Part shown: positions 10,627 to 64,000 of the stretch, piece by piece
How positions within the stretch are numbered: the stretch's first letter is position 1
Layout of the letters: each line of letters opens with the position of its first letter
Source: Elusimicrobia bacterium RIFOXYA2_FULL_47_53
GTDB lineage: Bacteria; Elusimicrobiota; Endomicrobiia; Endomicrobiales; XYA2-FULL-47-53
Reading direction: 5' to 3'
Assembly (NCBI GenBank): GCA_001800315.1
Contig: MGVE01000010.1
Location: 1-64,000 of the forward strand
Length of the DNA stretch: 64,000 nt
Notes under the pieces: model-generated
Database searches by the model: none
Seen by the model: the letters and a program-made list of their open reading frames with translations, nothing else
What the model was told of the DNA's origin: nothing
Program-made: the position numbers and the translations under genes

Positions 10627-11502
10627 TTAAAACTCCACTGAAAAACTGATCAGTGAACTGTAGCCCAGCTTGTAATGCCTCTCCAAAGTATAGTCAAAAC
10701 GAATTTTCTTAAAACCGAGGCTCATGCCGATATCCGTATTAAGATTGTCGTCCTGTTCCTTAAGGCCGGCCCTGAACGCAAGGCTTTTCCTGAAAAACCA
10801 CGATTCAAATCCGGCGGAATAATGCGCCTTGGAGTCCGCTTTTTTCTGTCCCTCAAGCGAAATTACATTGTCGGGGTTAAGCCAGTAGGCGGCGCCCAAA
10901 TTAACCTCGGAAGGCAGATTGTCAAGCGCGAGCGTTTCCCAGTAAATAGCGGGATTATTAATATTCTCCCAGACAAACGAAAATTTAAGCTTATCTTTGA
11001 TGGCCTCGTAAAGGCAGGCGAGGTCAAGCCCTATGCCGCTGGCTTTGTAGTCATACAAAACGGAATAATATTTCATGTTGGCTCCGAGAGAAACGGAACG
11101 CCCGACATACTGCCCGTAAGAAAAAACAAAAGTATTCTCGGAATAATTCATAAAACTAACCTGCGGCGTAGTGCCAAGCCTTATCCAGCCAAAACCCACG
11201 GTGCCTTTGCCGACACGCGGGTGTATATAGCCCAAAGCATTATAGTTGACAAGCCCAAGCCCGTAAAGATCCTGATAGAAAGCGCTGACCTCTTTTCTTT
11301 TCGCGCGCCCCAAAGCCGCCGGGTTCCAGAAAATAGCCGAGGAATCGTCTACTACGGCGCTGTATGCTCCGCCGAACCCGCGCCCCCTGGCTCCGATGCC
11401 TATATCGTCAAAGGCTGCCGATAAATTCTGGAAATTTAACAAAGAAACAAGCAGCGCCGCAAATACTGATACTTTCAGGCCGCGAGGCGAAACATAATTC
11501 AT
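10627..11502 (-). CDS. PorV/PorQ-like (UPF0164) outer-membrane beta-barrel protein
   Basis: 291 residues with a signal peptide ending near LSAAFDD. The diagnostic start of the mature part, GARGRGFGGAYSAVVDDSSAIFWNPAAL, is shared by the PorV/PorQ/UPF0164 family of FadL-like 14-strand barrels. The C-terminus SLISFSVEF ends in Phe, as expected for an outer-membrane barrel. In Bacteroidetes PorV is the shuttle of the type IX secretion system; here a T9SS role is only suggested by neighbouring proteins with C-terminal FlgD-Ig tails. Its ATG overlaps the stop of 11499-13397 by 4 nt, so translation is coupled. Confidence 0.75.
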   Translation of the reverse strand: MNYVSPRGLKVSVFAALLVSLLNFQNLSAAFDDIGIGARGRGFGGAYSAVVDDSSAIFWNPAALGRAKRKEVSAFYQDLYGLGLVNYNALGYIHPRVGKGTVGFGWIRLGTTPQVSFMNYSENTFVFSYGQYVGRSVSLGANMKYYSVLYDYKASGIGLDLACLYEAIKDKLKFSFVWENINNPAIYWETLALDNLPSEVNLGAAYWLNPDNVISLEGQKKADSKAHYSAGFESWFFRKSLAFRAGLKEQDDNLNTDIGMSLGFKKIRFDYTLERHYKLGYSSLISFSVEF

Positions 11503-51981: not shown

Positions 51982-52517
51982 GCCCATTCGTTTATTTTGT
52001 TCCAGTCTCTATAGTCACCAGGTTTTACCCCCAGGGCTATTTTACCCATATAGTTCATAAACCAACCCAAACTTTTAATGTTCCCTGCGAATACCGCTTT
52101 ACTAAATGGCGTCAGGCCTGAAGCCACGCGGTCAGGAAAAGTCTGAGCAAGCTTTCGATTGTTTTCTTTGGATGAAGTGACAAACGAACAAACGGCAAAC
52201 ACCGCGATTTTTTTGCTATTCAGGCTAACCCTGTTGGCATCAACGAACTTAATGATATTTTCATGCGGTTTGCCTCCGTGTATAGCCGAGCCAATTATTA
52301 CCATATCGTATTTCTCAATGTCTATCTGTTTACCTTCAGCAGACAGAATTTCAACAACACAACCCTCTTTTTCAAGATAATCCTTCATTTTCTCTGCCAC
52401 CTCAGCAGTTGAGCCCGCATACGAACCATATACAATTAAAACATTATTCATTTCTGTTCCTTTTGCGCTCAATAATTGCGTTGACAGCATTAACAATAAA
52501 TAAATAATAACTTTCAT
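51945..52517 (-). CDS. Flavodoxin-domain protein
   Basis: 190 residues; the flavodoxin domain starts at MNNVLIVYGSYAGSTAEVAEKM with the FMN phosphate loop, followed by YDMVIIGSAIHGGKPHENI and FAVCSFVTSSKENNRK. It resembles the HemG/flavodoxin-like protoporphyrinogen oxidase group. The ORF has a 22-residue hydrophobic extension (KVIIYLLLMLSTQLLSAKG) that looks like a signal peptide; both its ATG (GAGG upstream) and the ATG at 52451 (AAAGGA upstream) have ribosome sites, so the start is ambiguous. Its 3' end is the source of the direct repeats that recur in the accessory region. Confidence 0.8.
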   Translation of the reverse strand: MKVIIYLLLMLSTQLLSAKGTEMNNVLIVYGSYAGSTAEVAEKMKDYLEKEGCVVEILSAEGKQIDIEKYDMVIIGSAIHGGKPHENIIKFVDANRVSLNSKKIAVFAVCSFVTSSKENNRKLAQTFPDRVASGLTPFSKAVFAGNIKSLGWFMNYMGKIALGVKPGDYRDWNKINEWAESLLKTSSDGM

Positions 52518-52588
52518 TCCGATGCCTCTAAGTTTTTGTCATGCTCAAACGGGAAAGCAAATCTGCGGATAGCGCAATCAAAAGCTTT

Positions 52589-52756
52589 CAGTAACTTTTC
52601 TTAATAAACAAACCACCCCAATTTAGCAAATTTCAAGAAAATCAAACCTAGTATAGGAAACGAATAAGCCGAAGGCTTTATCCCTATGCTATCCCGTAAT
52701 GTGTCAGCTGTCTGCCAAAGTGTAGCTTCCAATTTCTTTATTTCTTCATTTGTCAT
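52589..52756 (-). pseudogene. N-terminal fragment of a type I restriction-modification methylase (HsdM)
   Basis: This 55-residue frame is too short for the ORF track. MTNEEIKKLEATLWQTADTL-RDSIGIKPSAYSFPILGLIFLKFA matches the start of the HsdM N-terminal domain (PF12161-type), where LWxxADxLR and YxxxVLGLIFLKF are conserved. After FLKFAKWGG the similarity ends and a stop follows, so the methylase domain is lost. Its ATG overlaps the stop of the DUF3800 gene (ATGA). It is probably a remnant of a type I R-M locus cut by deletion. A role as a small protein is possible but less likely. Confidence 0.7.
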
Positions 52757-53487
52757 ATTTGCCTCTTTTCTAGTTTATCCAGATTTACGATTGTAAGCTT
52801 CTTTATTTTCTCAATTAGTAATTTCGAGCTTTTGAGTTTTCTTAACTTACCATTGTTTTCCAGCTGATCCACAGGAATCGACTCAAACAAATCACTATCG
52901 TTTGATATTGTATCTATTCTAGCCGCAAGATATCCAATAATATCTGCGTAAAGTATTCCGATTGTATGAAAGTTTGAAGGCACAAGTGCAACATCTTCAA
53001 AAAGTGTATATTCTCTTGCATTTAATACAGAATTAACAACTTGACTAATATCGTTCGAACTTATATCGCTCCTAAAGTCGCAGTATATACTTACTAAATT
53101 CTTGCCATTACCACTATCTGCCTTAGAAAGTGCTTTTTTTAACAACTTTGGCAAGACCTCTAAATATACTTTCTTCTGATCAGTCACACTAGACTTCCCA
53201 CTATAGTAAAAACTCATACGCGCATTTTTCTTTGCAATATTTAAATCTATTATTTTTGCACAGATATCAATTCGCTTCTCAATACTTATTGATTGATCAC
53301 CCTTTTTAGCAGAAAAAAGATAGGCACCTTTGAATTCTTTATTAGGATCCCATTTTGAATCTGTTAATATCTGGTGAAATGCAGTTTTTATATGACAATA
53401 ATGGGCAGAATTAATAGTTGCAATACTCAATCCAAAATAATCTTTGAATTTATCATCACTTGTTTCATCAACAAAAACTAATTTCAT
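52753..53487 (-). CDS. DUF3800-domain protein
   Basis: The ORF extends to 53520, but the ATG at 53487 (AAAGGGTG upstream) begins the conserved start MKLVFVDETSDD, giving 244 residues. DUF3800 proteins share an RNase H-like fold with an N-terminal DE motif and a later Asp near a conserved ADIIGYLAARI helix; both are present (FVDET; YADIIGYLA). They are frequent in defence islands and beside restriction systems; the activity is unproven. It differs from the 373-residue DUF3800 at 62479. The coupled hsdM fragment downstream suggests a former R-M neighbour. Confidence 0.8.
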   Translation of the reverse strand: MKLVFVDETSDDKFKDYFGLSIATINSAHYCHIKTAFHQILTDSKWDPNKEFKGAYLFSAKKGDQSISIEKRIDICAKIIDLNIAKKNARMSFYYSGKSSVTDQKKVYLEVLPKLLKKALSKADSGNGKNLVSIYCDFRSDISSNDISQVVNSVLNAREYTLFEDVALVPSNFHTIGILYADIIGYLAARIDTISNDSDLFESIPVDQLENNGKLRKLKSSKLLIEKIKKLTIVNLDKLEKRQI

Positions 53488-53596
53488 TTCACCCTTTAAA
53501 AAAAAAACTACACCGCGCATTTGCCAGTGTGGTAATGGTTGATTTTATTATTTGAATTGATCCCCATAAGTTCCTTTAACCTATATTTTCATACTT

Positions 53597-54925
53597 CTAC
53601 CCTACCACTTCCCAGTGTCCACCCTTATCTGGTCCGATGCGGCGCAGTTGATTAGAGGTTTTAAGTGCTTTGACAATTTTCTCTACACCTTTTATACTCA
53701 GGCCTATTTCCTGGGCAATTTCGTTAGTAGTAACTTCTGGGTTGTTAGATATAATACGAATTATTTTCTCCCTACTTTTCTCCCTACTTTTCTCCCTACT
53801 TATTGGAGTAGTTGAAGATACCGCCTCGGCACCTTTTCTCATAAAAGTTGTTATGAAGTGTGTTCCGAGTTCAGAAAACTCAGCTGTGGGTTCTTTCTCC
53901 AATATAAGTTTAATGCCTCTGCCCCAGCGTTCCACAAAATGAATGCGGTGGAGCATATCAGCGATAAGTTCATTTCGCCTTTCGGAAACGATCTTTGAGC
54001 GAATTTGCTGAATGGTAAGCCCTCCGTACAATAAACCAGGGCTTCTTACTTCCACCTTATCCTTAAATACTGCAACACTCACTGAATCCATAGCTCGGTA
54101 ATCTCTATGGCAGAAAGCATTAATAACGGCCTCTCTTATTGCTTCTCGGTCAATTTCAGGTACATCTATACGGCGCAGGCCCTCAACCCTCATTCCAATA
54201 TTTATCTTTTCAAGAATGTAATCCTGTGCCTTATCTATCAGCTGGAAAAGGTCACCACCGAACTCTTTCATGTCAGTGATATATGCCGTACTTGTTCCAC
54301 TGAATACCGCGCAGCGCAACTTAGCATTGAAAAATATGTCTTCGGGTTTCTTGCCGAACAGCATTACCGCCGCATTGCAGAGCTTTGACCCGCGAGACAA
54401 TTTTAGTTTTGCAAGCACATTTTTGATTGAATCGTACCGGAGACCCGCAATTTTAAGGAATGTTTTGAGTTTCTTAACACTTATATCGTTTATGGTTGCA
54501 TCGGCACATATTTCTGTGTCCCAATGATGGTTATCGCGGTTTTTACTCAATATAAGTTGCTCAAGCTCTCTTGCCGATAATTGACGATCAGCATCAGCAA
54601 CTCGCATATATGCCCTACCATTTGCGAAGTAAGGCGGATGTGAACCCTGAAACACAACTTTGACACAGGTTTTATTTTCTATCTTAACTTTATTTATTTT
54701 GGGGAATATTTTGGGTTCTATTTTATCAGAGATGTTTTGGGATATATTCCTAAGAGTTTCTTTGCCAATCTGTTGACCGACAATAGTGCCATCGTCTTTA
54801 ATACCGAAATACAAAACACCCTTCCCATGCTTGTTGAGTATAGCAGCAATGGAAATTAAGGCCTCTTTTATCTCAGAAGTAGTCTTTTTAAGTTCAACGG
54901 TTTCAGATTCATGTATTGTCACCAT
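53597..54925 (-). CDS. Schlafen/AlbA_2-domain putative DNA-binding ATPase-like protein
   Basis: 442 residues. The N-terminal AlbA_2 domain (about 1-125) shows ESETVELKKTTSEIKEALISIAAILNKHGKGVLYFGIKDDG and PYFANGRAYMRVADADR. Residues about 265-370 match the GHKL-like HATPase_c_4 block (REAIREAVINAFCHRDY, VEVRSPGLLYGGLTIQQI, RWGRGIKLI). The C-terminus is a winged helix (VTTNEIAQEIGLSIKGVEKIVKALK). Such proteins are often labelled RecG-related or Schlafen-like and commonly lie in type I restriction loci. A 12-bp tandem repeat encodes SREKSREKSREK in the linker. There is no clear ribosome site. Confidence 0.82.
   Translation of the reverse strand: MVTIHESETVELKKTTSEIKEALISIAAILNKHGKGVLYFGIKDDGTIVGQQIGKETLRNISQNISDKIEPKIFPKINKVKIENKTCVKVVFQGSHPPYFANGRAYMRVADADRQLSARELEQLILSKNRDNHHWDTEICADATINDISVKKLKTFLKIAGLRYDSIKNVLAKLKLSRGSKLCNAAVMLFGKKPEDIFFNAKLRCAVFSGTSTAYITDMKEFGGDLFQLIDKAQDYILEKINIGMRVEGLRRIDVPEIDREAIREAVINAFCHRDYRAMDSVSVAVFKDKVEVRSPGLLYGGLTIQQIRSKIVSERRNELIADMLHRIHFVERWGRGIKLILEKEPTAEFSELGTHFITTFMRKGAEAVSSTTPISREKSREKSREKIIRIISNNPEVTTNEIAQEIGLSIKGVEKIVKALKTSNQLRRIGPDKGGHWEVVG
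53764..53799. repeat. Three tandem 12-bp repeats in the AlbA_2 gene
   Basis: TTTTCTCCCTAC occurs three times head to tail and encodes repeated SREK units on the minus strand. Unit length is a multiple of three, so copy-number change alters linker length without a frameshift. Confidence 0.8.
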
Positions 54926-55067
54926 ATATTAACGGTAATTTTAACTCTTTTGAATGATTTTGGCAACCAAACAAAAAACTTTGTTCAACCTACTGTAAAG
55001 TAGATTTCACAAAGTTTAAGGGTCACCAGGCAAACGCCATTTGAGCCTGTTTTACCTTATAACCATG

Positions 55068-55997
55068 CTATTTTACATTCAACCTCTTTTGACACACCTC
55101 TGCAAGAGCTTTATAATGAATACTTTGCCGAACAGATATCTTAACTGATTTGAGTTCAATCTCCAAATCATCTAGAGCATTCTTGTACTTACCAAGATAG
55201 TAATAGATTAATCCGCGTAGCCCATGAGGCAAGCTTCCGTCTATAGCCATTGCCTTGTTCGCATAGCTTAGAGCCATTAAATAGTCTTCCTTTCTGCCCG
55301 ATTCTATCCCTTTTTCATAATAGACATTCGCATAGTTATAATAGTTTTTCCCAGTCGGATCTATTTTTATCACATTCTTCATATCTTTAATAGCTTTATC
55401 AAGCTTTTTGCGCTGCAAATAAAATGCAACTCTCATCTGATAATATCTCGGATTTTGCGGGTCAGACTCTATCTTCTTGCTATACTCACTCTCAAGCTCT
55501 TCAAATGATGCTACTGCCTTGAATTCATTAATAATAAACACATGATCGTTATTTAAGTTACCTAGATACATGTAATAAGCGATTATATTTTGAGGAGGTT
55601 TTGACTCCTTTTCAAGGTCAGGTAATAATGGCTCCTGAATAGGCAACCAATAAACTGAATTATTCTCATCCCTGACCTTTATTTCATGCTTGAACAATTT
55701 CGGGAAATCAGTATCCGCCAAGGTCTTAAAAAAACCATCAACCATTAACCTGTGGTTTTTTGATATAGGCCTTATTTCACCAATATAAACAAGCTCTTCC
55801 TTTATTTTTTGTGCAGGCCGTGATGACTCAAATGTATAAACAAAACCCTTTTTCTTCAACTTAGCTGTTTTTTCTGTGTTCGGATGCATTTTAAGGATAT
55901 TGGATATAGTATTTGAAGAATATGAATCGTAGTTAAATTCACAATATAGCGGGACTGTTATATTAATACACAATAAAAACACTGCCAAATATTTCAT
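55068..55997 (-). CDS. Exported TPR protein
   Basis: 309 residues: a signal peptide (MKYLAVFLLCINITVPLYC), an N-terminal domain of about 140 residues without recognisable motif, and tetratricopeptide-like helices from about 165 (SDPQNPRYYQMRVAFYLQRKKLDKAIKDMKNVIKIDPTGKNYYNYANVYYEKGIESGRKEDYLMALSYANKAMAIDGSLPHGLRGLIYYYLGKYKNALDDLE). Likely a periplasmic scaffold. It is followed 51 nt later in genome order by another exported protein gene. AAAGGTG precedes ATG. Function unknown. Confidence 0.7.
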   Translation of the reverse strand: MKYLAVFLLCINITVPLYCEFNYDSYSSNTISNILKMHPNTEKTAKLKKKGFVYTFESSRPAQKIKEELVYIGEIRPISKNHRLMVDGFFKTLADTDFPKLFKHEIKVRDENNSVYWLPIQEPLLPDLEKESKPPQNIIAYYMYLGNLNNDHVFIINEFKAVASFEELESEYSKKIESDPQNPRYYQMRVAFYLQRKKLDKAIKDMKNVIKIDPTGKNYYNYANVYYEKGIESGRKEDYLMALSYANKAMAIDGSLPHGLRGLIYYYLGKYKNALDDLEIELKSVKISVRQSIHYKALAEVCQKRLNVK

Positions 55998-56048
55998 TTA
56001 TTACACCTTTTCATCGATTACGACGATTAAAGCATTAATTAATAACAC

Positions 56049-56609
56049 TCAGAGACCATCATCCTCATTATACTGTCTTTCCATTTCCTTATAAAATCCC
56101 TCATTTTCACTTGTTTTTAGAAAACCAATTCTATATTCCAAACCTTCTCCACCCGGAATATACTTATTAACTGCCAGCACATACTGAACCTCTATAACTT
56201 CGCTTGGCCCCAAGGTCGGTAAAATCCAACGCAATGTAGCAAATGCAGGGCTGTATATTGCACCGCCATTACTTGATATATACCCTAATTTACCAGGCAG
56301 CATTACCATAAATGTTTTGTTACTTATTGGATTCTCAGACATGTTCCGAATGATAATCTTATGAGTATATTCTTTACCGCTCCTCAAATTTAGAGGCGTG
56401 GTCATTTTTGCGTACAATTCGTCTTCACTCATTGCTTCCATATAACTAGCATTTTCACCTGATATCTTTTCCAATAGGTTCCCGTAATTTATGCGGTAAT
56501 ATCGCACCAGATCTCTGGCCGAATTAGAAAACGAGTTGGTTTTAATCGCATAACCCAGCATAATGAACATCACCAGCAAACCGACCAGGATTTTTATTCT
56601 GTATTTCAT
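56049..56609 (-). CDS. Membrane-anchored protein with a DUF11-like beta-sandwich
   Basis: The ATG at 56609 (AAAGGG upstream) is preferred over the ORF start at 56624, giving 186 residues. One N-terminal TM helix (IKILVGLLVMFIMLGYAI) anchors an extracytoplasmic domain. Residues about 75-165 (LRSGKEYTHKIIIRNMSENPISNKTFMVMLPGKLGYIS, LGPSEVIEVQYVLAV) resemble the DUF11/conserved-repeat Ig-like domains of surface proteins. The partner is unknown; the neighbour at 55068 is also exported. Confidence 0.6.
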   Translation of the reverse strand: MKYRIKILVGLLVMFIMLGYAIKTNSFSNSARDLVRYYRINYGNLLEKISGENASYMEAMSEDELYAKMTTPLNLRSGKEYTHKIIIRNMSENPISNKTFMVMLPGKLGYISSNGGAIYSPAFATLRWILPTLGPSEVIEVQYVLAVNKYIPGGEGLEYRIGFLKTSENEGFYKEMERQYNEDDGL

Positions 56610-56647
56610 ATAACACCCTTTCAAATGACTTACACAATTGCTTTATT

Positions 56648-56687
56648 CAACTACATGCCATCAAAACCTGTTTTAAGGAGTGCTTCT
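56648..56687. repeat. Flavodoxin-3'-end direct repeat, copy 2
   Basis: CAACTACATGCCATCAAAAC-CTGTTTTAAGGAGTGCTTCT differs from copy 1 at only a few positions and would encode EALLKTGFDGM-stop on the minus strand, a diverged flavodoxin tail without its gene. It lies between two unrelated accessory genes. Confidence 0.75.
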
Positions 56688-56704
56688 ATCCTAAAACCTT
56701 AGCT

Positions 56705-57244
56705 CTAAATCTTTTTCATTCTTTTTTCAAACTCATCGACAACTTTACTTTCGGACATAAAATCCTTAAGGAGATATTTTAATTCAATAATTAATTCGCT
56801 CTTATCATCTTCTTTCGGAATCATACTGTTATTTACCCATACCTGGATTTGATTTTCAAGACGGCCAAATATACGTTTTTTGTAAGAATATCCTACAACC
56901 CATTTTTCAAGAACAAATATTATCACAACTGCAATGAAGACTAATGGGATAAATGTATAATTTTTTAAATATAATGTACCAAAAAGTGAACTGGTGGCAA
57001 CCATTTGAACAATGATACCAATTGATAAAAAAAATAAACCGACGGCTGAATAGTACTGTTTTAGTAAAACAGCCTTAATCAATGCCGCTCTTGTTCCATA
57101 AATATGAAAATTGCCTTCCCAGTAACCACCAACCGCAATATCCCTAGCCTCTCTGTCAGTTATTTTAATTGTCTTCCATATAAAAAAAGCAGAACTAAAT
57201 TGAATAAATAATCCCAAAATTGTTAGTTGAGAACCCAAATTCAT
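56705..57244 (-). CDS. Membrane protein of unknown function
   Basis: 179 residues with three to four hydrophobic helices: LTILGLFIQFSSAFFIW, AVGLFFLSIGIIVQMVA and FIPLVFIAVVIIFVLEKWVV, then a charged cytoplasmic C-terminal coil (SELIIELKYLLKDFMSESKVVDEFEKRMKK). I do not recognise a family. AAGGGG lies 9 nt before ATG. It stands alone in AT-rich DNA between flavodoxin-tail repeats. Confidence 0.6.
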   Translation of the reverse strand: MNLGSQLTILGLFIQFSSAFFIWKTIKITDREARDIAVGGYWEGNFHIYGTRAALIKAVLLKQYYSAVGLFFLSIGIIVQMVATSSLFGTLYLKNYTFIPLVFIAVVIIFVLEKWVVGYSYKKRIFGRLENQIQVWVNNSMIPKEDDKSELIIELKYLLKDFMSESKVVDEFEKRMKKI

Positions 57245-57410
57245 ACCTCCAACACCCCTTTTACATATAAAATTTATTATAAATCATTAAGAATATTGAA
57301 TTCTATAAAATTCGCTTACAACACACTAAGGATCAGGTCTTTACATTTAACATTTCAACATCAGGGGCTTAACATCACTGGATTTTTAACTGTTGACACA
57401 TAATTGAAAT

Positions 57411-57764
57411 TTATTCAATTCCTTTTATTAGCCCGGAGAGCATTTTGTTTATAACTTCGAGTTCATTGACAAGTTTTTCGTGAGTTTGTGCATCGATGAG
57501 TTGTTTTCGTTTCAATCGTTCAAGAAGGGGAACGCACTCGTAAGTAGAACCGCGGGCAATCCAGAAAAAGTTTTTTCTGTCGTTTTTATGCCAGCGGCCA
57601 TTGCCTTCGGCTATGTTTAATGCGATTGATGTTGAAGCTCTTAGGATTTGGTCAATTAAGTGGCAAGTGCCTTTTTGGGTGATTGCGTCGCAGAGTACAT
57701 CTATTTTTTCGGCAAGGTCAATGGCTTTCTGGTAGACTTCAAGTTTTTCGAATAGAAAAGACAT
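57411..57764 (-). CDS. Four-helix-bundle protein (23S rRNA intervening-sequence protein family)
   Basis: The ORF begins at 57839, but the ATG at 57764 (AGGGGGGC upstream) starts the family core MSFLFEKLEVYQKAIDLAEKI, giving 117 residues. Other motifs are QILRASTSIALNIAEGNGRWHKNDRKNFFWIARGSTYECVPLLE. This is the TIGR02436-type four-helix bundle, often encoded in 23S rRNA intervening sequences but also as orphan genes next to repeats. No rRNA surrounds it here. A long inverted repeat lies in its 5' region (57794-57913). Its role is unknown. Confidence 0.85.
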   Translation of the reverse strand: MSFLFEKLEVYQKAIDLAEKIDVLCDAITQKGTCHLIDQILRASTSIALNIAEGNGRWHKNDRKNFFWIARGSTYECVPLLERLKRKQLIDAQTHEKLVNELEVINKMLSGLIKGIE

Positions 57765-57793
57765 GAGAAAGCCCCCCCTAACTTCAACAGAGT

Positions 57794-57913
57794 GAGATTT
57801 GAGCAGTTGAGAGTTGACCGCATTTGAGGTGGCACACATTCAGATTTTTGCGATTTTCTTCAATTTGCCGTATTCCACTTGCTCTACTTTCAACTCTCTA
57901 ATCTCAAATGCTC
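57794..57913. repeat. Inverted repeat upstream of the four-helix-bundle gene
   Basis: GAGATTTGAGCAGTTGAGAGTTGA pairs with TCAACTCTCTAATCTCAAATGCTC over 24 bp with a few mismatches, loop about 72 bp. With copy 3 of the flavodoxin-tail repeat and the fragment at 58007 it accounts for the stretch 57765-58188, which holds no intact gene. Confidence 0.6.
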
Positions 57914-57946
57914 CAAATTTTTGCGGAGCAAAAATTTAAGGGTCCC

Positions 57947-57975
57947 CAACTACATGCCATTAGAACCTGTCTTGA
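57947..57975. repeat. Flavodoxin-3'-end direct repeat, copy 3
   Basis: CAACTACATGCCATTAGAACCTGTCTTGA keeps the core of copies 1 and 2 and then diverges. Same orientation. It lies between the four-helix-bundle gene and the 3' end of the CBASS-like operon. Confidence 0.65.
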
Positions 57976-58006
57976 AATAACTTAGAGTTGAAATATCAAT
58001 CATTAT

Positions 58007-58132
58007 TTATATAAAGATGTACAAAGGCGATAGGTTTTCATCCAGTAGTTTTAATTTACCTTCAGCCTCTATCTTAGCTGATATTTGGGAATGACTCTGA
58101 TATCCCCACATAAAAAGTTTAACTGTATTCAC
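58007..58132 (-). pseudogene. Short ORF after the CD-NTase gene, possible truncated operon gene
   Basis: A GTG frame of 41 codons, MNTVKLFMWGYQSHSQISAK-IEAEGKLKLLDENLSPLYIFI, begins 56 nt after the CD-NTase stop. VKLFMWGYQ looks like the first strand of a real protein and a stop comes early, so I take it as the start of a degraded gene at the operon end. It is too short for the ORF track. There is no convincing homologue I can name. Confidence 0.35.
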
Positions 58133-58188
58133 CCTTACTGTCTCTTGATAAAATAATCAATTGTTAATCTGTTAAACACAAGTTAAAG

Positions 58189-59580
58189 TTATTGAATGTT
58201 TACTACAAATTCACCACTGCGAGCAAGACATATCCCATCCTTTACAACAAAACATTCGACCCAATGCTTGCCTTTATAGAGTGTACTTTCTTTCCTTACA
58301 AAACGCCCCGCTCTTTCATATTCACCATCATAAAAGTCACCACGTAAAGAATTAGCTAATTCTGCTTCATCTCCAGTATTTACAACCTGCCAATATACTT
58401 CGTATGGCCAAGAAACATTGGTATCAGCTTTAAATTGAAGTGAACATTTTTTAGGCAATGGATCTCCATCACTTTGAAATTGCTGTGGTCTAAAACCTTT
58501 ACAAATATAGGATGCTGTTATATTTGCTCGTCCCTCTATATTAACAGACCACTTTGGCTGTTTACGATGACTTACAGCAAATATACTTTTTGTTTTTTCT
58601 AAAGAGTTCCTCAAGAAAGAACCAATTGTTTCAAAACTATTTGACTTTTTCGCTTCCGGTATTGGAAAATCTCTACCGAAGTGCTTTTTCATCAATTGAC
58701 AAGCTTTTATCTCATCAGATTCAGCATCTACCTGTTCCAAAATGACGGCAAGTGCTTTTAATCTATTTTTTAATCCGTCCATATCATCGTTATTGATTTT
58801 CCCGAATACATCTTCATATTCTGGAGTTGGTTTTTTAATACTAATACGGCCCGAGATCAAACCGGCTCCATTACAAATTTGTATTAAGGCAGACAGGTCA
58901 TCAGATTTATTATCATTGATAACCTTGCTATTTAATAAATTATTAACAAGAAGAATATATGCCAGACCAGAAGGTTTCGCACCAGACTCAATCGGCAAAG
59001 ACTCGTCATCCCAACGCCGAATATATCTCACAAGTCGCCGAAATTGATTTGTTTTTGTTGCAGAGTCTTCTGTATCCTTGAATTGCGTCATTATATTATC
59101 TACATAGTCTAATAGTCCCTGCGGGTTTGCATCCTTCCATCCATTTTGTTTATGAGCAAGTTTGAACACTGTTTCTTTAAAAATGTTCTCATGTACAGCA
59201 TATGTCACTAAATCAACGTGATATCCATCCTTGTAAATTACACGAATACATGGCCCTTTGGACACAACTTTCTCCGTGTGATCTTTTACTGCATCATAGA
59301 TCCATCCTCTAACTTCTGAAGCTGTATAATCATTTTCATTAATACTTAACCTCAATGCCACATCAATATCATAACCAAGATTTTCAATTGGTTTTACTCC
59401 AGTTTTCATTATGTAACTGCCTTGAAGCATTTCCTGAAAAGATGGCTTGCCTTTATCCTTAAGATAATCGCGAATACGATTCAAAATAATATCTCTCTTC
59501 TCAGCGAGAATACTATTAAGTTCATAATCCATTCGGATTTTTTCATGGAATTGTTCAAGATAATTCTGAATGTACGCCAT
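58189..59580 (-). CDS. CBASS-type CD-NTase (cyclic oligonucleotide synthase) with C-terminal sensor-like domain
   Basis: 463 residues. The nucleotidyltransferase core has the CD-NTase pattern: MLQGSYIMKTGVKP (G54-S55), the metal pair in GYDIDVALRL (D71, D73) and the third Asp in HVDLVTYA (D123). A helical OAS-like core extends to about 320. The last 120 residues (KQPKWSVNIEGRANITASYICKG to HWVECFVVKDGICLARSGEFVV) resemble the AGS-C sensor domain found in SMODS-type enzymes. It would make a cyclic nucleotide after phage sensing. It lies 8 nt after the patatin gene, its likely effector. No Cap2/Cap3 genes are present, pointing to a short, type I-like CBASS. Nucleotide product and clade cannot be given. 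Confidence 0.85.
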   Translation of the reverse strand: MAYIQNYLEQFHEKIRMDYELNSILAEKRDIILNRIRDYLKDKGKPSFQEMLQGSYIMKTGVKPIENLGYDIDVALRLSINENDYTASEVRGWIYDAVKDHTEKVVSKGPCIRVIYKDGYHVDLVTYAVHENIFKETVFKLAHKQNGWKDANPQGLLDYVDNIMTQFKDTEDSATKTNQFRRLVRYIRRWDDESLPIESGAKPSGLAYILLVNNLLNSKVINDNKSDDLSALIQICNGAGLISGRISIKKPTPEYEDVFGKINNDDMDGLKNRLKALAVILEQVDAESDEIKACQLMKKHFGRDFPIPEAKKSNSFETIGSFLRNSLEKTKSIFAVSHRKQPKWSVNIEGRANITASYICKGFRPQQFQSDGDPLPKKCSLQFKADTNVSWPYEVYWQVVNTGDEAELANSLRGDFYDGEYERAGRFVRKESTLYKGKHWVECFVVKDGICLARSGEFVVNIQ

Positions 59581-59588
59581 TAAACCTC

Positions 59589-60677
59589 TTATTGTTTAAG
59601 AATTGACAAACTCGTGAATATTTCCTTAACTAAAGCCATTTCACCAGTATCACTACTTAAAACTTTACTATGTATTGCATCAGCATCTGTTCGCGCCATT
59701 TCATTTAAGGTTTCTATAGCTATCTTATCAGCCTTGTCAATATTGATTGCACTAAATTGTTCTGGTGATTTATTTGTTTGTTCCAAGCGGACAAACCGTG
59801 TCGGCAATTTTAATTTATTTAACGAAGAACAAAGGAATCGTGATGCATTGGAATAGCCGAATGACTGAGAAGAAAGCGACATTTCAACAATATTCACACC
59901 GGCACGCCAATTAAAAAGTCCCCAATTGGGATTTTTTACTGAATATGGATCACCCGATGGCTGATCACATGTCCCTACGGATAAAATATCTAACTGAGTA
60001 TCTTCTAAATCTATCATCCCTATTGCTTCTATAATCCCAATCAATGATGGGTTATTCGCCCAGAGCCCTCCATCGACAAAATTATCTTGAATAGATTTAT
60101 TATCAGGATTGGTAAACTGGGCAATAGGAAAAAGAATGGGGGCCGCAGCAGATGCCATACAAACATCAACTAAAGAGTAATTATCATCCCTGTGTTTACC
60201 TGGATTGTGTGGTGTCTTAAAAACCCAAGCTTTATAATTTGAGGCATTAACACTAGGAACACATAAAGCTATATTTCTTTTTTCATAAAGTTGTTTGATT
60301 GTCATGGTTCCAAATACTGATTGCAAAGCATTTTTAAGTTGTAATACATTTGATGCAGGTTTCTTAATGTATTTACTTGCCCAAACCAAGAATTTAATAA
60401 GCTGTTTTTGTGAAGGCATTGGATCTACAAATATCTTTTCCCCATTATCTATATATAAAGACTGAATCCTATTTATAGGAATTCCGGCAGCCAACCCACA
60501 TGTCAGTATTGCTCCTGTACTTGTTCCACAAATAAGATCAAATGCTTTGCCTATATCGGGGATATCCTTAGAAAAACATGCATCGAATCTGTAGGCAAGA
60601 GTAGACAACAAGGTAGCAGTATAGAGGCCCCGCATCCCACCGCCATCAATACATAACACTCTAAATGTATTTTTCAT
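59589..60677 (-). CDS. capV: CapV-like patatin phospholipase, CBASS effector
   Basis: 362 residues of the patatin family: the oxyanion-hole loop CIDGGGMRGLYTATLL (residues 10-24), the nucleophile elbow GTSTGAIL (S53) and the catalytic Asp in VDGGLWANNPSL (D202). The catalytic dyad is complete. CapV of Vibrio cholerae is activated by cGAMP and degrades membrane phospholipids, killing the infected cell. The adjacent CD-NTase gene starts 8 nt after this one ends, so an effector-synthase pair is strongly suggested. A plain metabolic patatin is the alternative, less likely in this context. The ribosome site is weak. Confidence 0.88.
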   Translation of the reverse strand: MKNTFRVLCIDGGGMRGLYTATLLSTLAYRFDACFSKDIPDIGKAFDLICGTSTGAILTCGLAAGIPINRIQSLYIDNGEKIFVDPMPSQKQLIKFLVWASKYIKKPASNVLQLKNALQSVFGTMTIKQLYEKRNIALCVPSVNASNYKAWVFKTPHNPGKHRDDNYSLVDVCMASAAAPILFPIAQFTNPDNKSIQDNFVDGGLWANNPSLIGIIEAIGMIDLEDTQLDILSVGTCDQPSGDPYSVKNPNWGLFNWRAGVNIVEMSLSSQSFGYSNASRFLCSSLNKLKLPTRFVRLEQTNKSPEQFSAINIDKADKIAIETLNEMARTDADAIHSKVLSSDTGEMALVKEIFTSLSILKQ

Positions 60678-60693
60678 AGATAAATGCTCTAGA

Positions 60694-60900
60694 CTACTTA
60701 CTTTTCCTATTATAAGGCGATTTATTATGGGGATTTAAAGAGATTCCTTCTTGGCTATCTTTAGTATATATCGAATCTGGAGTACGTCCTAATTTTAAAC
60801 CAATCACTCTTGTTGGCGTGTTCCCCTTAGCCAACTGTTTTATCTGTGTCACTTCTTTTTGAGTCCAGGCTTTGCCAGTGTTCCGGTTGTACATTGCCAT
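60694..60900 (-). CDS. Small SANT/HTH-like protein in the CBASS operon
   Basis: The ATG at 60900 has AAGGAGG 5 nt upstream and defines 68 residues; the longer ORF from 60984 is not supported. The sequence NTGKAWTQKEVTQIKQLAKGNTPTRVIGLKLGRTPDSIYTKDSQEGISLNP has the three-helix Myb/SANT-like pattern of small conserved bacterial proteins that end in SPYNRKSK-like basic tails. It may bind DNA or be a regulator. It sits 16 nt before the patatin gene, in the same operon. Confidence 0.75.
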   Translation of the reverse strand: MAMYNRNTGKAWTQKEVTQIKQLAKGNTPTRVIGLKLGRTPDSIYTKDSQEGISLNPHNKSPYNRKSK

Positions 60901-60920
60901 AACAGCCTCCTTGCAATAGA

Positions 60921-61256
60921 TTATTTCAAAAGCGAAACTACGCCTTTTGCAAATTGGAACGATTTGAGCGCCGCATCGACCCATTTTGTACTATCTCTAA
61001 CGGCTTCTTTTAAATCTGATACTGATTTAACGGCATCAGCCTGGGAAAATGTATTTTTAGATGCCTTACTAAACGCAGATGCAATATCCGACAATTGCGG
61101 TCCTTTAATACCCATAAATCCTTGAACTTGGCTTTCAAGTAACTCGATTTGATTATTCTGAATAGCAATCAACTGAACTACATTTTTCACTAATTCTTGC
61201 ACATCTTCTGGCATTTTCTGTAAAGAATCTTTCAATTTCTGAACATCAGTGTCCAT
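60921..61256 (-). CDS. Helical protein of unknown function in the CBASS operon
   Basis: 111 residues, almost entirely helical by composition: KLKDSLQKMPEDVQELVKNVVQLIAIQNNQIELLESQVQG has a coiled-coil heptad character, a Gly-Pro hinge (GIKGPQ) follows, and the C-terminus KSFQFAKGVVSLLK is amphipathic. No known domain. It lies between the lipoprotein and the SANT-like gene, 11 nt and 20 nt away. The tail could contact a membrane, but this is speculation. AAGGGG precedes ATG. Confidence 0.7.
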   Translation of the reverse strand: MDTDVQKLKDSLQKMPEDVQELVKNVVQLIAIQNNQIELLESQVQGFMGIKGPQLSDIASAFSKASKNTFSQADAVKSVSDLKEAVRDSTKWVDAALKSFQFAKGVVSLLK

Positions 61257-61267
61257 AATATAACCCC

Positions 61268-61792
61268 TTATTGAAACATAGATAAAAGCTCTTGGAGTCT
61301 TTTGGATTTATTAGGATCCATTTTCAAGACACTAAGAGCCTTCATTTGCAAATTGGAATCTTTCAGCTTATCAACAAAATCATCTGTTAGTTTACTTTTT
61401 TCAGTAAAATCTTTATATGCCTCTAAATGGATTTTTGCTATATCAGACTGCTCTTTAATGGTGGACATAAGTTCCTGCAAGAGCGTAAGCATTTCTTTTT
61501 TCTCCGCTAATAAATCTCTCGTATAAAATTCTAAATCGATTTTGGCTTCTGGAGTCAGCTTATAGTCGGACCCAGCAAGTTCATTCTGTTTTTTAACCTT
61601 CATTTGCTGAATTTTAAAATCCAAATATGCGCTAAGCACGGGCAAATAAGTGTCGCTTAAAATTTGCATGTTTTTAGACATATCCGTAAGATTTTCTTCA
61701 TTCTGGCTATTTATTGGCCTTAAAATCTTTGGATTCATGCATCCGGTACAAGCCAAGCATCCCAATACCATAATGACAATAAAAGACTTCAT
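61268..61792 (-). CDS. Lipoprotein of unknown function in the CBASS operon
   Basis: The ATG at 61792 has AAAGAGGA upstream and starts a signal peptide MKSFIVIMVLGCLACTGC; a lipobox is possible at VLGC or CTGC, so lipid attachment is likely (174 residues). The mature part is helical and charged (LTDMSKNMQILSDTYLPVLSAYLDFKIQQMKVKKQNEL, EMLTLLQELMSTIKEQ). I recognise no family. It is second in the operon, 10 nt after the LexA-like gene. As an envelope protein it could sense or contain damage, or be the cargo of an older mobile element. Exporting a protein from a CBASS operon is unusual. Confidence 0.7.
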   Translation of the reverse strand: MKSFIVIMVLGCLACTGCMNPKILRPINSQNEENLTDMSKNMQILSDTYLPVLSAYLDFKIQQMKVKKQNELAGSDYKLTPEAKIDLEFYTRDLLAEKKEMLTLLQELMSTIKEQSDIAKIHLEAYKDFTEKSKLTDDFVDKLKDSNLQMKALSVLKMDPNKSKRLQELLSMFQ

Positions 61793-61802
61793 CTTATCCT
61801 CT

Positions 61803-62423
61803 TTAATCATTAATTTTTACTACCCTTCTGACCACACCTTGTATACTAAAATCTTTTGAAATGACAATTGGCTTATACTTATCGTCCTTAGATTTCGGCA
61901 ATAGTACAACATAGTCTTTTTGTGGTTTATAATATTTAACAGTGGCTTCATCATCGATAAGTGCAAGCACAATCTCACTCGGATTAGCAATTGATTGGCT
62001 TTCAATCAACAATAGATCATTATCATCTATTCCTGCATCATTCATGGATTCACCATGAGCTTTCAAGAAAAAATAGTTATTTGGCCTATTTTTAATAAGC
62101 TCTTTTGAAACAGAAATGTATCCTTCTATATTCTCTACTGCGAGAAGCGGGGCTCCACAAGCAACCCTTCCAAGTAGTGGAATACTTACTAATTCCTTTT
62201 CTTGTTTTCTACCGGTGTTAATACTTTTAATACCTTTTGCTTTTTCAACTTCCAAATACTTTTTCTCAGCCAGTACGTTAATAAACTGTTGAATAGAATT
62301 AACCGAAGAGTAACCCAAAGCATCTGCTAAATCCTTATAGCTGGGTATTTGGTTATTTACTCTCTGAAACTCTTTAACTGCATCTAAAACTTTCTGTTGT
62401 TTTGATGTTAAATGTGTTTTCAT
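61803..62423 (-). CDS. LexA-like self-cleaving repressor, first gene of the CBASS-like operon
   Basis: 206 residues from the ATG at 62423. The N-terminal winged helix (LTSKQQKVLDAVKEFQRVNNQIPSYKDLADALGYSSVNSIQQFINVLAEKKYLEVEKAKGI) matches LexA. The S24 protease part has the cleavage region RVACGAPLLAVENIEGYI, with Cys-Gly (89-90) where LexA has Ala-Gly, the catalytic Ser in GESM (S126) and Lys in EATVKYY (K163). It should repress its promoter and cleave itself when RecA is activated by DNA damage. This is not the obvious chromosomal LexA, since it heads a defence operon. A palindrome over its promoter is the probable operator. Confidence 0.87.
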   Translation of the reverse strand: MKTHLTSKQQKVLDAVKEFQRVNNQIPSYKDLADALGYSSVNSIQQFINVLAEKKYLEVEKAKGIKSINTGRKQEKELVSIPLLGRVACGAPLLAVENIEGYISVSKELIKNRPNNYFFLKAHGESMNDAGIDDNDLLLIESQSIANPSEIVLALIDDEATVKYYKPQKDYVVLLPKSKDDKYKPIVISKDFSIQGVVRRVVKIND

Positions 62424-62430
62424 ACATAGT

Positions 62431-62459
62431 ATTATACATATTGCATGTATGGAAGTCAA
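62431..62459 (-). promoter_or_regulatory. Leaderless promoter and probable LexA-type operator of the CBASS-like operon
   Basis: Minus strand TTGACT (62454-62459), 17 nt, TATAAT (62431-62436). ATACAT-ATTGC-ATGTAT (62434-62450) is a perfect 6-bp-arm palindrome lying in the spacer and overlapping the -10 box. The ATG is 7 nt beyond the -10 box, so the transcript probably begins at or next to the start codon. The downstream sequence CATACATAG repeats one operator half. Confidence 0.75.
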
Positions 62460-62478
62460 GCGAGCGACATGCTTGGGA

Positions 62479-63600
62479 TTAGTTTAGCAGAGAGGGGTTG
62501 TTTTTGATAATTTCTTTTCTAATTTTACTATAAAACATTCTTGTAGTAATAGCATGTAGTTCATCATGTTTTAAAGGCAATGAAAGATATTTTCTTGACA
62601 ATAATAAATATTGCACATCACTCTGGGATGTGGTATTATTTATCAATGGAATCATATCGAATATTTTTAAATATATTGAAAACAACCTTTCTAAATAGTT
62701 CTTGCATACCAAATTGAGTTTTTCCTTTGCAATATTATTTATTTCATTTTGCAGATGGGATAAGTGTTGCAAGGGATTATTTGAATAATATTCTACAATT
62801 TTTATTGCTTTTAAATAGAATTTCAACAACATCTCCCTACTAACTATTTTATCAGAATCTATAGGGAATGAGCTGTCTGTGTAATAACGAACAGGCCCTT
62901 TGACACCTTTCCCAATAAGAAAATCATCGTTACCCCAATCCTTGCTTTGAGTCATCATAACTGATTTAAAACGACTTTTTATTCTATCATGCCATTTACT
63001 ATCACCGTTCACGCGTCTATTAACAGCCCAGAGTAGTAAGTCCGTACATTGTACGCCGGGATTATTTTTTTTCACAATACTATATTCGATCTTAGGAAAG
63101 TATACAGGAAGCATTGGAAGATTATAAATACTGGATAAAAGTTCTTTTTCTAATTCTTTATGATTATTTTCCAAAATACTCATTGTTAGTCCTGGTCTGT
63201 GTTCTATAAAAAACTTTGCATTGTCTCTTGTGTGCATAGCGCTCAGTGTTGAGTTTATTAATGACACTGCATAATAATCTCGATTTATTAAATTTTTAGA
63301 TTTTTTAGCTATATCATGAAATTCACTTACAAATTCCGCATTTATATTCTTATTAATTTCGGTTAAAAGATGAGAATGCGCATTCTTACTGTCTTCGGAA
63401 GCATGAAACCAACCCCGACTAATCGTTCTTTTATCTAACTTATTTTCTGGCGGCTTGTGAATATCGGGGTCCTTTTTTAAATTTTCTATCGCAATATTTA
63501 TGATCTCATCTTTGATTTCCTCGTCACTTATCAACATACCTGCACCAACACACGGATTGGGTTCTGCAAAAGTACTTTCATCCACATAAACATATCTCAT
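62479..63600 (-). CDS. DUF3800-domain protein (long form)
   Basis: 373 residues. The DUF3800 core is visible as MRYVYVDESTFAE with the DE motif, a histidine-rich segment (GWFHASEDSKNAHSHLL) and GVQCTDLLLWAVNRRVNG, the conserved helix with an Asp. The C-terminal 130 residues are helical and less conserved. RNase H-fold nuclease activity is proposed for the family. It lies 55 nt upstream of the LexA-like gene; the repressor has its own promoter between them, so this is a separate transcript. A TATAAT box 8 nt before ATG suggests leaderless expression. Confidence 0.82.
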   Translation of the reverse strand: MRYVYVDESTFAEPNPCVGAGMLISDEEIKDEIINIAIENLKKDPDIHKPPENKLDKRTISRGWFHASEDSKNAHSHLLTEINKNINAEFVSEFHDIAKKSKNLINRDYYAVSLINSTLSAMHTRDNAKFFIEHRPGLTMSILENNHKELEKELLSSIYNLPMLPVYFPKIEYSIVKKNNPGVQCTDLLLWAVNRRVNGDSKWHDRIKSRFKSVMMTQSKDWGNDDFLIGKGVKGPVRYYTDSSFPIDSDKIVSREMLLKFYLKAIKIVEYYSNNPLQHLSHLQNEINNIAKEKLNLVCKNYLERLFSIYLKIFDMIPLINNTTSQSDVQYLLLSRKYLSLPLKHDELHAITTRMFYSKIRKEIIKNNPSLLN

Positions 63601-63608
63601 ATTATTGT

Positions 63609-63614
63609 ATTATA
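63609..63614 (-). promoter_or_regulatory. -10 box close to the DUF3800 start
   Basis: TATAAT on the minus strand ends 8 nt before the ATG at 63600. No good -35 box is seen 17 nt upstream. The rest of 63615-63849 is AT-rich without recognisable features. Confidence 0.4.
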
Positions 63615-63849
63615 GGCATGACATTTCACTGTTTGACACTATTTAGATTTTGCAATATCAAATCGAACGATAGTATTTAATATTTCAGCTGTCTGGATGA
63701 TATATTTGAGTGTAAATCCTTTTTGCGGAATTTCAATGAAATATATCTGAGCAATGAAAATGGTTCTCAATTTGGCAGACAGGCTATATATTTTTAAGGT
63801 GCCTATTCCGACAAATATCCCCTGCTTCTATGCACGAGCTCAATTCAAA

Positions 63850-64000
63850 TTATTTATTTAACTCCAGTGTCACCCTGATCTTGCTTTTATGCTCAAGAAT
63901 CACCTTGCCGCCGGCTTGATCAATAGCAACAATCATTGAATCATCTATTAAATCGCCCTCTTTGAGCAGCAAGGATTTATTCCCCTGCCTCTTATTTTGA
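63850..64000 (-). CDS. 3' end of a gene of unknown function (partial)
   Basis: A minus-strand frame enters from the right window edge and stops at 63850: QNKRQGNKSLLLKEGDLIDD SMIVAIDQAGGKVILEHKSK IRVTLELNK. KEGDLIDDSMIVAIDQAGGKVILEHKSKIRVTLEL has the look of the beta-rich C-terminal end of pilus or type II secretion proteins (PilP/GspC-like: a displayed residue, then GGKVILEH). That assignment is weak. The codon use and GC match the core genome rather than the accessory island, so this may mark its right border. Confidence 0.5.
   Translation of the reverse strand, partial: QNKRQGNKSLLLKEGDLIDDSMIVAIDQAGGKVILEHKSKIRVTLELNK

Follow-up and report, generated by a model that had tools for sequence, protein, structure and literature searches.

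A probable accessory module of a lipoprotein and a helical protein in CBASS operons of the Elusimicrobiota

A CBASS-like operon lies close to one end of the 64,000-nucleotide stretch of DNA that we have analysed (the window; contig MGVE01000010.1 of Elusimicrobia bacterium RIFOXYA2_FULL_47_53, positions 1 to 64,000), and three uncharacterised small genes are embedded in it, raising the question of whether these are parts of the immune system or travel with it by accident. In the ORF list the operon reads, on the minus strand, LexA-like S24 repressor, lipoprotein, helical protein, 68-aa protein, CapV and CD-NTase, and its features are as follows.

62434-62450, either strand: putative operator, an ATACAT-N5-ATGTAT inverted repeat in the promoter spacer, with half-sites ATACA/TGTAT common to two other LexA-headed CBASS promoters
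62431-62459, minus strand: operon promoter TTGACT-17-TATAAT, just upstream of the LexA-like gene, with 11/12 consensus matches
62423-61803, minus strand: LexA-like S24 repressor, the genome's second LexA paralogue, bearing a Ser/Lys dyad and a Cys-Gly cleavage site
61792-61268, minus strand: lipoprotein, 174 aa, its mature part predicted to be a long helical bundle; 57% identical to its homologue in the genome G158
61256-60921, minus strand: helical protein, 111 aa, with neither signal peptide nor transmembrane segment; about 48-49% identical to its G158 homologue
60900-60694, minus strand: small HTH/SANT-like protein, 68 aa, a probable passenger
60677-59589, minus strand: CapV-type patatin phospholipase effector, GGGxRG, GTSTG and DGG motifs intact
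59580-58189, minus strand: DncV-like CD-NTase with a C-terminal AGS_C domain, GSY...DID and VDLV motifs intact

The reading frames and ribosome-binding sites confirm that the three genes are real and stand between repressor and effector, where the initial annotation had placed them. Each start has a good Shine-Dalgarno sequence (AGAGGA for the lipoprotein, AAGGGG for the helical protein and AAGGAGG for the 68-aa protein), and that of the helical gene overlaps the lipoprotein stop codon, so these two genes are probably translationally coupled. The view that there is no room for separate promoters also holds, since only 10-20 nt separate the genes and the best promoter of the region, which is the only strong one, lies upstream of the repressor with a leader of about 8 nt before the ATG at 62423. 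Nor do the three proteins match any known Cap family above noise in Pfam, PADLOC, PHROGs or NCBIfam, in agreement with the original reading; the 68-aa protein resembles an HTH regulator (phrog_323, E 3.8e-8).

The CBASS core of the operon is intact as judged by motifs and profiles. CapV passes the NF041079 model 'CBASS cGAMP-activated phospholipase' (249.2 bits against a cut-off of 200) and keeps the GGGMRG, GTSTG and DGG motifs, while the CD-NTase combines DncV-like and AGS_C domains (PADLOC Cyclase, E 3.9e-85) and has the active-site motifs GSY...YDID at 54-73 and VDLV at 122-125. Genes for Cap2, Cap3, E2 and HORMA proteins were not found in the operon, and as it is without Cap2, Cap3 and E2 we assign it to type I. 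It resembles type I systems with a CapV effector and an AGS_C CD-NTase, and differs from them in adding the lipoprotein and helical genes, the 68-aa protein and a LexA-like repressor within the same operon.

The repressor passes TIGR00498 (140 bits; cut-off 110.95) and has a LexA winged helix, an S24 domain and the motifs GESM and TVK (Ser/Lys dyad) and CGAP (Cys-Gly cleavage site). A separate, better-scoring lexA is present on another contig of the same genome, and the operon-borne protein is a second, dedicated LexA paralogue, for which RecA-dependent self-cleavage and SOS control are predicted. The CBASS operons of the window and of two further genomes, G228 and G239, begin with a LexA-like gene, and ATACA/TGTAT inverted half-sites are found in all three core promoters, in the forms ATACAT-N5-ATGTAT (window), TATACA-N3-TGTATA (G228) and GTATACA-N3-TGTATAC (G239); elsewhere the motif occurs about once per 100 kb, and the exact form of the window once in its genome. 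The other LexA-headed loci lie at about 1203-1842 of L029 and on the minus strand of L033, upstream of CapV at 10748. The CBASS controllers CapW, CapH+CapP and CapK+CapS, whose genes likewise adjoin the immune operon, respond to DNA damage or ssDNA (PMC13373217), but the predicted self-cleaving LexA/S24 repressor of the window is unlike them, and the words 'LexA' and 'S24' are absent from that paper. 'LexA' is named once in PMC9122588, and literature searches on CBASS with a lipoprotein or S24 brought up nothing relevant among the open-licence titles and abstracts listed.

With the 111-aa protein as query, 341 genomes of the phylum gave one strong match (E 4.9e-29), in the metagenome-assembled genome Elusimicrobia bacterium GWA2_56_46 (G158), which belongs to the Elusimicrobiota as does the window host and holds the nearest homologue of the pair. 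The gene order there is CapV, CD-NTase, Cap2 (E1-E2), Cap3 (JAB), lipoprotein and helical protein, the pair thus ending a type II CBASS operon. The lipoproteins of the two loci are 57% identical and the helical proteins about 48-49%, a conservation that exceeds that of CapV (34%) and is similar to that of the CD-NTases (47%). A profile built from the two lipoproteins found no further strong member in the phylum, and G158 has the only homologue of the window pair found in searches of plasmids, viral contigs and GTDB genome contigs, the last by a pattern search with the profile.

The architecture of the pair is more widespread. We inspected every CBASS-like locus raised by CD-NTase and CapV searches in Elusimicrobiota, leaving out G228, whose sequence ends inside Cap2. 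The pair is present at six of the 12 readable loci (window, G158, G125, G239, G134 and G179); the six without it are G072, G276, G231, G158:C28, G089, in which CapV is truncated, and G313, which has no CapV. At the four loci beyond the window and G158, a lipoprotein gene is followed directly by a helical gene of 100-145 aa, in these arrangements.

G125: CD-NTase, E2, CapV, pair
G239: LexA, CapV, CD-NTase, E2, pair
G134: CD-NTase, CapV, pair
G179: pair, HNH-SAVED effector, AGS_C CD-NTase (CD-NTase frame broken)

The pairs of G125 and G179 are of one family (64% and 57% identical), whereas their effectors are a patatin and a nuclease respectively and their CD-NTases come from different clades. 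A third family comprises G134 and a homologous pair in G120, and G239 is the fourth. Profile-profile comparison, with one to three sequences in each family, gave no significant similarity between the four, and their common architecture may reflect either a deep common origin or convergence. The pair accompanies CBASS of types I, II-long and II-short, with both CapV and HNH-SAVED effectors, and since types and effectors differ among its hosts it is better described as a portable accessory module than as the new CBASS subtype that had been suggested. Conserved co-occurrence with CBASS, on which that suggestion depended, is seen for the lipoprotein and helical protein; the 68-aa gene is absent from the other loci. 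Cap2, Cap3 and E2 are likewise extra genes of CBASS operons, but the pair has no sequence similarity to them and occurs in addition to such accessories in G158, G125 and G239. Two of these loci have further features of their own: in G179 (L030 7084-9453) the CD-NTase frame is broken within AGS_C and the C-terminal piece is 64% identical to that of the window, and in the pairless CBASS locus of G072 (L075 8436-8876) a nuclease-like gene with a lipoprotein signal lies just upstream of CapV.

Of the six pairs linked to CBASS, four came to light through inspection of the neighbourhood of CBASS genes; sequence searches alone found two homologues in CBASS (G158, and G179 given G125) and two outside it (G211 and G120). 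We also scanned with a mechanical criterion that asks for a lipobox ORF (110-400 aa) and, no more than 60 nt behind it, a helix-prone ORF of 95-150 aa without a hydrophobic segment. This recovers all seven of the pairs scanned (window, G158, G179, G134, G239, G125 and G211). No pair turned up at the other Elusimicrobiota CBASS loci scanned, in 784 kb of Elusimicrobiota background DNA, in 20 plasmid regions surrounding a match to a CD-NTase or patatin, or in 850 kb of viral contigs that include 10 loci with a CD-NTase. At the 95% upper limit of the background rate, 0.37 pairs are expected in twelve 8-kb CBASS neighbourhoods and the chance of finding six in the 12 is about 2.5e-6, or 6e-4 when counted for four families, since the positives served to tune the criterion and pairs within a family are not independent. 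It is very probable that the lipoprotein and helical genes are a real and recurrent module of Elusimicrobiota CBASS operons.

Six of the eight known occurrences of the pair are in CBASS operons. One of the other two, in G211, is a third member of the G125/G179 family, found by sequence search with the lipoprotein and comprising lipoprotein and helical partner, 48-51% identical; no CD-NTase was found on its 19.9-kb contig. Tail-to-tail with the pair runs a GTPase conflict operon (GAP1-N1, DO-GTPase1, DO-GTPase2, GASH and a calcineurin-like phosphoesterase with GAAD), and a small multi-transmembrane protein and a 110-aa protein accompany the pair (contig C19, L085 9878-18317). In G120, a frameshifted homologue of the G134 lipoprotein is followed by a homologue of the helical protein (36%), a decayed pair without CBASS that lies behind a PIN-like gene and an HTH–IrrE (M78) regulator (contig C47, L230 910-4048); a related HTH–M78 (IrrE) regulator adjoins CapV operons on plasmids. 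With two homologous pairs lacking a CD-NTase, the module is not strictly CBASS-specific. The initial annotation had held that homologues lying mainly in unrelated phage or plasmid contexts without CD-NTases would speak against a CBASS role.

For the 68-aa gene the same description fits well. None of the other genomes in a 120-genome sample of the phylum encodes the protein, and its plasmid homologues (up to 64% identity) are mostly in unrelated phage or plasmid contexts, one of them a phage tail region. The one exception is a weak relative (32%) in a CBASS operon of a Polaromonas plasmid. On these contexts, that one weak exception aside, we reject a role as a CBASS component, and the gene is probably a passenger. 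In the Polaromonas operon (L143 3534-7035) the relative comes first, followed by an AAA ATPase, two unknowns and the cyclase, and the operon adjoins a divergent HTH and ImmA/IrrE pair.

What the two proteins of the module look like bears on where they would act. The lipobox of the window lipoprotein, CTGC, is non-canonical at -3, and that of G158 (CAGC) likewise has Cys at -3, whereas canonical lipoboxes are present in five of the seven lipoproteins checked (G125 LAGC, G179 LVGC, G239 MLGC, G134 LAGC and G211 LIGC). In Escherichia coli, lipoproteins without Asp at +2 are sorted by the Lol rule to the outer membrane; no family has Asp at +2, and if the rule extends to the Elusimicrobiota the lipoprotein is probably located there. 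The helical proteins have no signal peptide and no transmembrane segment, their maximum 19-residue hydropathy being about 1.0. Phage spanins (Rz/Rz1) are also a lipoprotein and a helical protein encoded side by side, but an i-spanin would need the transmembrane anchor that the helical partner lacks, and a spanin pair is ruled out. The lipoprotein is modelled as an elongated helical bundle (pLDDT 72.7), and the model of the helical protein is poor and of low confidence (pLDDT 62.0). Foldseek, which the initial annotation had proposed, gave no match below E 0.18 for the lipoprotein model against the PDB and viral models and named no function, the best matches (E >= 0.18) being generic long helices such as those of BAR and ESCRT-like proteins; a PDB sequence search with the pair gave no match. 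Matches to Picorna_P3A (E 0.0036), LXG (E 0.016) and ZorA (E 0.0014) were rejected as coiled-coil noise; they are below curated cut-offs where these are given and are not repeated in the G158 homologue.

The most likely explanation, which we put forward tentatively, is that the pair is a portable, stress-induced and semi-autonomous envelope arm of a defence response. It would be a two-gene, translationally coupled accessory module that has repeatedly been placed in stress-inducible defence operons, mostly CBASS. DNA damage would lead to cleavage of the dedicated LexA-like repressor, so that both proteins are made together; the lipoprotein would be exported and anchored in the envelope, probably in the outer membrane, and the helical partner would remain in the cytosol or on the membrane. 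The arm might then serve phage exclusion or envelope disruption alongside CapV, rather than immunity to CapV. Co-translation and damage-type repressor control argue for a stress-induced working pair, and semi-autonomy is favoured by the indifference of the pair to effector and CBASS type and by its ability to exist without CBASS.

The main rival, which we consider somewhat unlikely, is a CBASS-specific envelope sensor or gate, in which the lipoprotein, or its blocked export, would monitor the periplasm or outer membrane while the helical protein, in the cytosol, would pass on or hold back activation of the CD-NTase. The pair does go with the CD-NTase rather than with a given effector, and its two compartments would suit trans-envelope signalling. 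PspA is a membrane-stress protein. Cap2 is reported to ligate a CBASS cyclase to it (PMC11153139), a precedent for membrane-linked control. Neither protein of the pair, however, contains a transmembrane segment that could transmit a signal, and homologous pairs without a CD-NTase argue against a strict CBASS component. It is unlikely that the two genes are unrelated passengers, small genes of a defence island that recombination has caught in the operon, an option already raised in the initial annotation. Defence islands shuffle, the adjoining 68-aa gene appears to be just such a passenger, and G+C content drops at about 52 kb from 43-52% to 31-39% and stays low through the end of the window (52000-64000), which fits an acquired island; but the order and adjacency of the pair are kept across distant families and different CBASS architectures, and the background yielded none. 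A toxin-antitoxin or self-protection system, in which the lipoprotein would shield the envelope from the phospholipase or would itself be neutralised by its helical partner, is suggested by the presence of two small, co-translated genes next to an effector that destroys membranes, yet it is improbable: CapV operons at other CBASS loci do without the pair, and the G125/G179 family also accompanies the HNH-SAVED nuclease in G179, which weakens the earlier proposal of an immunity protein and, with the indifference of the pair to effector and type, makes effector immunity unlikely.

The CBASS accessory proteins found by the profile libraries searched act on or in the cytosol, and a module that contains a lipoprotein and recurs in CBASS of different types would tie cyclic-nucleotide immunity to the envelope of the cell; with a dedicated LexA paralogue, moreover, a lethal immune operon would come under the control of a self-cleaving repressor. 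A bolder proposal, and a doubtful one, is that the sequence-unrelated families constitute an autonomous two-compartment immune unit bolted onto CBASS and other conflict systems, which if true would give cyclic-nucleotide immunity an envelope arm. Directly upstream of the window operon lies a gene for a DUF3800 protein (62479-63600), and a look-alike judged by eye is situated 9 kb along, at 52753-53520.
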